A stretch of 64,000 nt of DNA from an uncultured Synergistales bacterium (GTDB taxonomy: Bacteria; Synergistota; Synergistia; Synergistales; Aminobacteriaceae), in the NCBI GenBank assembly GCA_905234075.1, contig CAJOGI010000002.1, positions 143,035 through 207,034 of the forward strand. Direction: 5' to 3'. The notes below the pieces were generated by a model. That model had not been told where the DNA came from. It saw nothing but the letters and a program-made list of their open reading frames with translations, and searched no databases. Position numbers and translations under genes: made by a program. Positions within the stretch are counted from its first letter, which is position 1. Every line of letters begins with the position of its first letter. Of this stretch, positions 13,865 to 63,785 are shown in pieces.

Positions 13865-14312
13865 AATTCTTGAGCAGTCCAAAGAATTAATAACCAGAGA
13901 AATAAAACTCTGTAAAAAGTTAAGGACAATGATCTCTCGCGAATTAGAGGCCATTGTCCTTGATGGTAATATGGACGAGCTTTTTAATATTCTTGAAAAG
14001 AAGGACGAAATATTATCGGAGCTTCAGCTTCTCGCGGACGGCTGGCGCGACGTTCTAAACAGTCCCTTAATTAATAACAACGCACCTAACGGACTTAGAA
14101 CACGTTTGCTAGAATTATACCCGGACGACACGGAGCTTCCTGAACTTATTCAAGAGAGCCGCGACATCGCAGACAGCATTATGCAGGCCGAAGACAACGC
14201 AATCTCAGAGCTTGGAAAATACAGAGACGGCCTCCGTTCGCAAATGGCCTCAAGAGTTCACGGACGCAACGCCGCCGCAAGTTATGCACGCATGGGAGGG
14301 TCAATGATATAG
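13854..14312 (+). CDS. FlgN/FliT-like flagellar chaperone
   Basis: A 152-aa, almost fully helical acidic protein following fliS, which is where FlgN or FliT type chaperones sit. The sequence has heptad-like helices (EQSKELITREIKLCKKLRTMI, with DELFNILEKKDEIL after it) resembling FlgN, which escorts hook-associated proteins. I start at TTG 13854, because AAGGAG stands 8 nt before it inside the end of fliS; a longer frame from 13770 would be the fliS gene read in a second frame. The stop TAG runs directly into a heptad array. Confidence 0.65.
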   Translation: MRDKILEQSKELITREIKLCKKLRTMISRELEAIVLDGNMDELFNILEKKDEILSELQLLADGWRDVLNSPLINNNAPNGLRTRLLELYPDDTELPELIQESRDIADSIMQAEDNAISELGKYRDGLRSQMASRVHGRNAAASYARMGGSMI

Positions 14313-14343
14313 TTAGGAGGTAGGAGTTAGGAGTTAGGAGGTA
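14311..14343. repeat. Heptad array supplying a ribosome site
   Basis: Units TTAGGAG, GTAGGAG, TTAGGAG, TTAGGAG, GTATAAA. The last AGGAGG is 7 nt before the ATG of the M48 protease gene and acts as its Shine-Dalgarno site. Confidence 0.8.
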
Positions 14344-32694: not shown

Positions 32695-32746
32695 ATTAGG
32701 AGGCGGAAAAAATTACCTCCTACCTCCTAATTCCTAACTCCTCACT
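32695..32746. repeat. Heptad array, paired orientations
   Basis: ATTAGGAGGCGG, A-rich loop, then CCTCCTACCTCCTAAT and further CTCC units. The arms can form about 12 bp, so it may end transcription of gdhA, whose stop (32745-32747) touches it. Confidence 0.75.
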
Positions 32747-59601: not shown

Positions 59602-60300
59602 ATGTTAGGCTATGGTTACGGACTTGACCCGACGATTATTATAGTAATCCCGGCGTTGTTATTATCAATGTGGGCGCAGTCGAGTGTGAAGAGCACTTTC
59701 TCTAAATACAGCATGATACAAGCGAGAGGGAACGTTACGGCGGACAGCGTCGCAAAAAATTTATTGACTCTCTACGGGCTTGGCAATATGCCCATAAATC
59801 ACGTCGCAGGTTCTCTCACAGATCACTACGACCCTACAAAGAAGACTCTAAATCTTTCTGATGAAGTTTACGGAAGCAGGAGCATCGCTTCAATCGGTGT
59901 TGCAGCTCACGAAGCAGGCCATGCAATTCAGCACGCGGAGATGTATTCGCCGCTGATATTAAGAAATTCTATCGTGCCTGTTGTAAATATCGCGACGACT
60001 GCTTCAACGCCGTTATTTTTTCTTGGCCTCGTGATGTCTAATTCAACGCTCGTTACGATTGGAATTATGTTATTCACGGCCGCACTTGTCTTTCATCTTG
60101 TTACACTTCCCGTTGAAATCAACGCAAGCTCAAGAGCTTTGACGCTGCTCGAACAGACTCACACGCTCTCGCCCGATGAATTAAAAGGCGCGAAAAAAGT
60201 TCTTACTGCTGCGGCGTGGACATATATCGCTGCGGCTGTAACTTCGGCTTTAACTTTAGTGAGAATGATTTTAATAGCAAATTCACGGAGGCGTGATTAA
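59602..60300 (+). CDS. YugP-like membrane zinc peptidase
   Basis: A membrane metallopeptidase (232 aa) with an N-terminal helix, the zinc motif VAAHEAGHAIQHAE (HEAGH, about 102-106), and three further hydrophobic helices. The substrate is unknown. AAGGAGG lies 10 nt before the ATG. The TAA stop is followed directly by the old start of rsmB (TTG 60301). Confidence 0.88.
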   Translation: MLGYGYGLDPTIIIVIPALLLSMWAQSSVKSTFSKYSMIQARGNVTADSVAKNLLTLYGLGNMPINHVAGSLTDHYDPTKKTLNLSDEVYGSRSIASIGVAAHEAGHAIQHAEMYSPLILRNSIVPVVNIATTASTPLFFLGLVMSNSTLVTIGIMLFTAALVFHLVTLPVEINASSRALTLLEQTHTLSPDELKGAKKVLTAAAWTYIAAAVTSALTLVRMILIANSRRRD

Positions 60301-60318
60301 TTGCGCGGAATAATAGCA
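60301..60318 (+). repeat. Imperfect duplication of the rsmB start, left copy
   Basis: TTGCGCGGAATAATAGCAG would read MRGIIA; 60357-60375 has ATGCGCGGAATTGAAGCAG, MRGIEA. Fifteen of the 18 bases after the first match. A ribosome site (GGAGG, 60287-60291) stands at the right distance before this TTG, so it may be the original start. Confidence 0.65.
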
Positions 60319-60351
60319 GGTAGGAGTTAGGAGTTAGGAGGCAGGAGGTAA
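60317..60351. repeat. Heptad array supplying the rsmB ribosome site
   Basis: CAGGTAGGAG, TTAGGAG, TTAGGAG, GCAGGAG, GTAAAAA. The last AGGAGG is 8 nt before the ATG. The array is flanked by the imperfect 18-bp duplication. Confidence 0.85.
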
Positions 60352-60356
60352 AAAAC

Positions 60357-61679
60357 ATGCGCGGAATTGAAGCAGCTCTGAAAGTTCTTGGCAATAATGA
60401 TAATAAAGGGGCGTTTGCGTCGGAGGCTCTAAGAAAACTCGCTGACCGTGAAAAAATGAAAGGCCCTGATATTTCTCTGGCCTCGTCATTAATTTATATC
60501 GTCATGAGACGGCGCGAGCTTTGGAAAAAAATCGCAGGCTCTTTCCTTCATTCAAAAGAGAAACTGCCGGCGCAGGTTTATACGGCTATAACTATGGGCG
60601 CAGGCGGATTAATGGAGCTTCGCAGATTTTCCGAAGGAGTTTTGATTAACGGCATTGTCGAGACTTTGAAGAGAAGCAAAGAAAATCAAAAATATATTTC
60701 GCTCGTCAACGCAGTCCTGCGGAAAATTAAAGAGGGCGGGCACGAGATGATCGACGCTATGAAAAAATCCCCCACGCTTGACGACAGAGCCTTAATCGCC
60801 GGAGTGCCTGTATTTTTTATTTCAGCGTGGGTCAGGTCGTGGAATAGAGCAGAGATTAACGAAATTTTTGAGATGTTCTCGCTGCCTTCGTACTCGTCAT
60901 TGAGAACTGAAGAGCCCGAAAAATTATTGAAACTTTTAGAAGAAAATAATATCCGCGCTTTTAAGTCGGACATGTCGCAGGCTTTGAGGCTTAATGAAAG
61001 CGTTTTGCCCGTTAATGTTCCCGGCTTCAGCGACGGATTGTGCAGCGTTCAGTCTGAAAGCTCAATAATAACGGCCTCGCTCGTAAGAAAATTTTATTCG
61101 GGCAGGGGATTAATTTTGGACATGTGCTCCGGGCGCGGAGTTAAGGCCGGGCAGATTTTGCAGGAATGTCAAAGCGCAAGGCTTGAATGCTGGGAACTCT
61201 CCGAGAAACGTTCAGCGAGCGCGGAGAAAGAACTTGAGAGACTAAAAGTAAAAGACCGGGCAGTATTAAAAATCGGCGATGCTCTCGTGATCGAACCGAA
61301 CGAAACGCCGAATTTTATAATGCTCGACGCTCCGTGCAGCGGATCGGGAACTTGGAACAGAAAACCCGAAGCAAAATGGCGGCTCGACTGGAAAAAATTT
61401 GACGCTATCGTCGCGACTCAAAAAAAATTACTCGAACGCGCTGTAAATTTATGCGCGCCCGGCGGAAATATTTTATATATTACTTGCAGTCTGCTGCGTC
61501 AGGAAAATGAAAACGTCATCGCAGAAATTCTAACGGCTCACCCTGAATGCGCAGAAATTTCCGGCATGATTAATTTCAAGGGAGCGGCTTTCAAAAAAGG
61601 CAGACCCTACGGATTTTATATCATGCCGTGTAATGCGTGGCTTGACGGTTTTTACTGTTCGCTGATAATAAAAAGATAA
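60357..61679 (+). CDS. rsmB: 16S rRNA m5C967 methyltransferase
   Basis: Methylates C967 of 16S rRNA. The protein (440 aa) has an N-terminal NusB-like RNA-binding domain, then the methyltransferase with DMCSGRGVKAGQI, the catalytic Cys in TCSLLRQENE and the second Cys in DAPCSGSGTWNRKPE. The sequence is more divergent than usual. The start ATG follows a heptad array. It is first in a group leading to rpe, in line with the rsmB-PASTA-rpe order seen in other genomes. Confidence 0.92.
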   Translation: MRGIEAALKVLGNNDNKGAFASEALRKLADREKMKGPDISLASSLIYIVMRRRELWKKIAGSFLHSKEKLPAQVYTAITMGAGGLMELRRFSEGVLINGIVETLKRSKENQKYISLVNAVLRKIKEGGHEMIDAMKKSPTLDDRALIAGVPVFFISAWVRSWNRAEINEIFEMFSLPSYSSLRTEEPEKLLKLLEENNIRAFKSDMSQALRLNESVLPVNVPGFSDGLCSVQSESSIITASLVRKFYSGRGLILDMCSGRGVKAGQILQECQSARLECWELSEKRSASAEKELERLKVKDRAVLKIGDALVIEPNETPNFIMLDAPCSGSGTWNRKPEAKWRLDWKKFDAIVATQKKLLERAVNLCAPGGNILYITCSLLRQENENVIAEILTAHPECAEISGMINFKGAAFKKGRPYGFYIMPCNAWLDGFYCSLIIKR

Positions 61680-61700
61680 TTGAAAGAGAGGAAAATTTTT

Positions 61701-63737: not shown

Positions 63738-63785
63738 CAGGTAGGAGTTAGGAGGTAGGAGGGAAAAAATCCCTAACCCCTAATT
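63738..63785. repeat. Heptad array, paired orientations, before rpe
   Basis: CAGGTAGGAG, TTAGGAG, GTAGGAG, GGAAAAAA, then TCCCTAACCCCTAA in the opposite sense. The arms can pair around an A-rich loop. Confidence 0.75.

Follow-up and report, generated by a model that had tools for sequence, protein, structure and literature searches.

A dispersed heptad element of about 40 bp was very probably inserted between the yugP and rsmB genes of a rumen bacterium (genome G000) after its split from a sister species, duplicating the target and bringing rsmB a new ribosome-binding site. The sequence studied is a window of 64,000 nt of this genome, in which the junction has the following layout, all on the forward strand.

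59602..60300, +, zinc metallopeptidase gene of the yugP type, on the 5' side of the insertion (ORF; Pfam Zn_peptidase_2, 3e-85)
60287..60291, +, ancestral rsmB Shine-Dalgarno (SD) sequence GGAGG, within the end of yugP (from the sequence; same place in the empty site of the sister)
60301..60316, or to 60319 if CAG belongs to the target, +, left duplication copy with the ancestral rsmB TTG (17/19 identical to the single copy of the sister)
60301..60330, +, predicted nine-codon leader ORF MRGIIAGRS, read from the sequence, with its TAG stop in the array
60317..60356, +, inserted element CAGGTAGGAGTTAGGAGTTAGGAGGCAGGAGGTAAAAAAC, 40 bp, comprising 4.6 heptads and an A-rich end (not present in the sister or in 28 further loci)
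60343..60348, +, new rsmB SD AGGAGG, part of the element (from the sequence; 8-nt spacing to the ATG at 60357)
60357..60375, +, right duplication copy with the present ATG start (17/19 identical to the single copy of the sister)
60357..61679, +, rsmB (Pfam Methyltr_RsmB-F, the RsmB/F methyltransferase domain, 6.4e-30; NusB, 3.1e-11)

The yugP-rsmB junction in relatives

RsmB was located in all 43 members of the genus (43/43), and its start region was examined in 30 of them. The sister species, a goat-rumen Synergistaceae metagenome-assembled genome (G007) whose RsmB is 95% identical to that of G000, has an empty site, in which the YugP end GGAGGCGTGATTAA runs straight into the rsmB start TTGCGCGGAATAGAAGCAGCTCTG without an array, leaving a single TTGCGCGGAATAGAAGCAG directly after the YugP stop. 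A sequence-only reading of the window had taken the left copy for the original rsmB start and had looked to a relative without the array, with a single start after the YugP stop, as support for insertion; G007 is such a relative, and its empty site bears out the assignment of the left copy. No array is present at the junction in any of the 29 other loci of the genus (the sister and 28 congeners). The YugP end lies directly or closely before the rsmB start in 26 of these 29 loci, as judged by eye, and the remaining three have a different sequence upstream of rsmB. Because the single copy of the sister is uninterrupted and none of the 29 loci carries the array, the array is a gain in G000 and not a loss elsewhere, and because G000 instead has two diverged copies flanking a 40-bp element, the insertion is recent and lineage specific. 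The compared genomes with an identified source are metagenome assemblies, one per species, and the rsmB site rests on one assembly.

Target duplication and the start region of rsmB

The left copy (60301-60319) reads TTGCGCGGAATAATAGCAG, and the right copy (60357-60375) reads ATGCGCGGAATTGAAGCAG. As previously noted from the sequence, with the first base set aside, 15 of the next 18 are identical between the two; overall they differ at 4 of 19 positions, and each differs from the single copy of the sister at 2 of 19. Random places in the window rarely reach such a match, the best 18-mer match between 40-nt flanks separated by a 37-nt gap being at least 15 in 2 of 1500 places. The exactly shared core of the copies is 10 bp (TGCGCGGAAT), and if three mismatches are tolerated, the alignment of the two can be continued as far as AGCAG. 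Since members of the heptad family usually begin with CAGGTAGG, the terminal CAG of the left copy may be part of the element rather than of the target. Judged from these letters, the target duplication can be placed firmly at 10 to 12 bp, and it would probably span 16 to 19 bp when two mismatches per copy are allowed. Of the earlier proposal of an insertion with a duplication of about 18 bp, the insertion is upheld by the empty site, and the length is firm for 10 to 12 bp and reaches 16 to 19 bp with mismatches.

The array between the copies has a heptad score of 30.3, and the insert shares the preferred 5' end (CAG[GT]TAGG) and the modal length (32-33 bp) of the family. It is identical to other dispersed copies at 36 to 38 of 41 positions, and no unique donor was found in the 58% of the genome covered, where the best other copies match at 38/41.

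The AGGAGG that lies 8 nt before the present rsmB start derives wholly from the element, and the start codon of the right copy has changed from TTG to ATG; the old GGAGG is spaced 9 nt from the TTG. Read from the old SD and TTG, the frame is now MRGIIAGRS, ending at the TAG at 60328-60330 within the array. These positions agree with the earlier suggestion that the right copy is the new rsmB start, with an AGGAGG inside the array. The downstream copy, with its ATG and the SD supplied by the element, probably serves as the working start of rsmB, and ribosomes translating the leader could terminate at its TAG inside the array and then re-initiate via the array SD. The rsmB leader RNA is predicted to fold no more stably than shuffled sequences (z 0.66), and no terminator-like site was found at the rsmB array.

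At the rsmB-ankyrin junction (window 61677-61692), the sister has a short heptad array (G007:C16:41258-41281) and G000 has none. The sister array provides both the TAG that ends rsmB and a GGAGG ahead of the gene that follows.

The heptad family, its distribution and its turnover

With up to three mismatches allowed, the window holds 49 matches to the pattern TAGGAGTTAGGAGT versus 2.5 expected, and G000 contains 219 arrays in 1.06 Mb, or 2.06 per 10 kb (about 58% of G000 and half of the sister were covered). The preferred 5' end is CAG[GT]TAGG, and 82 of the 219 arrays have the modal length of 32-33 bp, corresponding to 4.6 units. In counts that pool G000, its sister, and a stretch of G042, with shared arrays counted twice, only 38 of 342 classified elements lie within called ORFs, so that the seven-base tandem unit is dispersed mainly outside genes. 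In the same counts, 110 of the 139 arrays in tandem gaps of at least 60 nt begin no more than 10 nt from the stop codon upstream versus 31.8 expected, although the gene calls are simple ORF calls and the arrays contain TAG, so some of these stops are the array's own; the ratio of sense to antisense orientation is 127:33. Pairs less than 50 bp apart have the TAGGAGT arm followed by the ACTCCTA arm in 37 cases and the reverse order in none (37:0; 66:0 with weaker arms in the pooled set). With RNA rather than DNA parameters, a two-layer quadruplex is predicted for the family consensus and none for the variant of G018, AGTGAGGAGTTAGGAG, which has the same length as the family. A TAAAARAC extension common to the genus and to G081, a member of another genus, was considered and dropped, having few occurrences directly after heptads. 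Three further family members in the window illustrate the settings in which the element occurs.

14311..14343, +, family member with an ATG within a few bases and a GGAGG in the SD position, shared with the sister
32714..32746, -, family member beside an inverted heptad arm and a T run, shared with the sister
63739..63762, +, family member just past the stop of a PASTA gene, with an inverted arm at 63768-63785

The family is concentrated in six species, with 358, 333, 384, 199, 123, and 49 pattern matches, versus three or fewer in each of the 37 other members of the genus. In the RsmB tree, the six array-rich species and G028 form a fully supported clade of seven species; since these are monophyletic, one gain, with loss or decay in G028, suffices. 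Only two arrays were found in 215 kb of G028, and the outgroup G038 yielded none over 100 kb. G081 has 77 pattern matches, with longer, uncapped arrays and many TAGGAGT-then-ACTCCTA pairs, which suggests an independent gain or a transfer. In this genome, which belongs to another genus of the family, one arm of the arrays (L207-L226) reaches up to about 117 bp.

Both flanks of 125 G000 arrays were found in the sister, where the array is also present in 116 and absent in 9. Four gains are clean, namely rsmB, C6:6513, C1:155110, and C1:156470. The gain at C6:6513 is a 79-bp inverted-arm insert with a perfect 27-bp duplication, for which the sister has a single copy, the duplication at C1:155110 is doubtful, and no clear duplication was seen at C1:156470. 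Flank duplication was rejected as a general signature of the arrays, the flanks of 348 elements (pooled as above) being no more alike than shuffled pairs. Apart from rsmB, a clear duplication (27 bp) marks one gain, and duplication is not typical of the family at large. Array lengths differ between G000 and the sister by 7 or its multiples, and because the changes come in such steps, slippage acts on existing arrays.

Some differences between the two genomes are larger. In the sister, about 250 bp that look like a degraded antitoxin gene separate a TAGGAGT array from an inverted ACTCCTA one (G007:C40:27428-27732, L066-L068), where the arms are directly adjacent in G000. Other gene-sized differences between these genomes also adjoin arrays, and a toxin-antitoxin-like gene pair beside an array in the sister (G007:C40:32706-33349, L067) is missing from the matching place in G000. 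Another sequence, with the palindrome CCTGCC-TTA-GGCAGG, lies in G007:C73 (opposite G000:C3:29067-29143, L104) and in G007:C26 near 38563 (L076), at places that have heptad arrays in G000.

Mode of insertion and comparison with known repeats

Insertion would have produced the duplication if a staggered or re-replicated target was filled in on both sides of the insert. The expansion of the family in one clade and the second gain, at C6:6513, count for insertion; the lack of a flank excess over the 348 elements, the lack of a clear duplication at C1:156470, the doubtful one at C1:155110, and the differences between the rsmB copies (4/19) count against it. The reverse transcriptase domain RVT_1 and the RAYT domain Y1_Tnp were not detected in G000, G007, and G018, which are the three array-richest genomes, none of the six array-rich genomes gave a Cas1 match, and DDE_Tnp_1, the sole DDE family searched, was not detected in G000. 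Reverse transcription, RAYT, Cas1, and DDE_Tnp_1 were accordingly set aside as movers, none being detected in G000. The duplications of the clean gains, at 27, 10-18, and about 0 bp, lack the fixed length expected of a classical DDE transposon or MITE.

The varied duplication length is in line with break repair or template switching, as is the CAG that the target and the element have in common. Within the insertion reading, we tentatively entertain replication template switching without a dedicated enzyme, in which the nascent strand would have left the target at the shared CAG, copied an array elsewhere, and returned 16 to 19 bases upstream. The CAG of the target coincides exactly with the beginning of the element, CAGG, and the duplication lengths and the failure to detect the four domains in G000 are also in keeping with such a process; however, the fixed 5' end, the sharp mode at 32-33 bp, and the same-length variants of lineages resemble the copying of a defined unit, and hundreds of copies in one clade are much for chance. 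Growth of the array in place by slippage from the stop and SD TAGGAGG, with the similarity of the flanks being incidental, is highly improbable. G000 and the sister do differ in heptad copy number, in 7-base steps, TAGGAGG joins a stop codon to an SD, and the array found only in the sister at the rsmB-ankyrin junction may derive from a local SD, but the sister has no TAGGAG seed at the rsmB insertion point, a second copy of the target accompanies the insert, and growth in place gives no fixed 5' end or length. A slippage origin is contradicted at rsmB by the empty site and could hold for some other arrays. An ancestral origin of the array and both copies, with loss from all relatives, is scarcely credible, for although direct copies can recombine to one, this would need independent, precise losses in 29 of 29 relatives, some of them nearly free of arrays.

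Beyond the inserted element at rsmB, the heptad arrays might, as a suggestion that we put forward with reserve, be tiny mobile elements with defined ends, copied and inserted by an unrecognized system with target duplications of variable length and leaving stops and ribosome-binding sites at junctions. Heptad repeats occur in several bacterial phyla, and the very small units of cyanobacterial small dispersed repeats were reportedly described as mobile by Elhai and colleagues in 2008. In the parts of the literature considered here, heptad repeats are described as stable or as lacking an evident transfer mechanism. The rsmB site adds a polarized insertion with an empty site, a duplication, and a visible effect on the start and ribosome site of a gene, in a clade where several species carry hundreds of arrays and close relatives nearly none, so that the spread is testable by genome comparison.

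The closest known kind is the G-rich heptads of Xanthomonas (GGGAATC) and Nostoc (GGGGA[C/T]T) (Rehm et al. 2015, PMC4692102), which are judged stable and for which the passages of that paper considered here do not describe insertion. As far as these passages go, the TAGGAGT arrays share the preference for four units and the position at stop codons on the sense strand, and they differ in their unit, in having GG tracts only, and in their fixed 5' end, as well as in the polarized insertion with its empty site and duplicated target and in the SD that a gene has received; in addition, the model does not support a quadruplex for all variants. The TAACTGA heptamer repeats of Beggiatoaceae and others (MacGregor 2015, PMC4679880) have a different unit and are likewise intergenic heptad arrays near genes with a patchy distribution, for which a role in translation has been proposed. 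In the Beggiatoaceae genome, TAACTGA lies mostly before starts and canonical ribosome-binding sites are rare (PMC4679880), whereas TAGGAGT arrays follow stops and hold an SD core. REP elements are tied to RAYTs and have a palindromic unit (PMC3733652), unlike the tandem heptad of the three array-richest genomes, in which no Y1 domain was detected. REP and REPIN elements with RAYTs nevertheless share with the heptads a short, dispersed form, proximity to stop codons, and inverted pairs, and REP GTAG ends can supply TAG stops (PMC3116915, PMC3733652), and many TAGGAGT elements contain GTAG.
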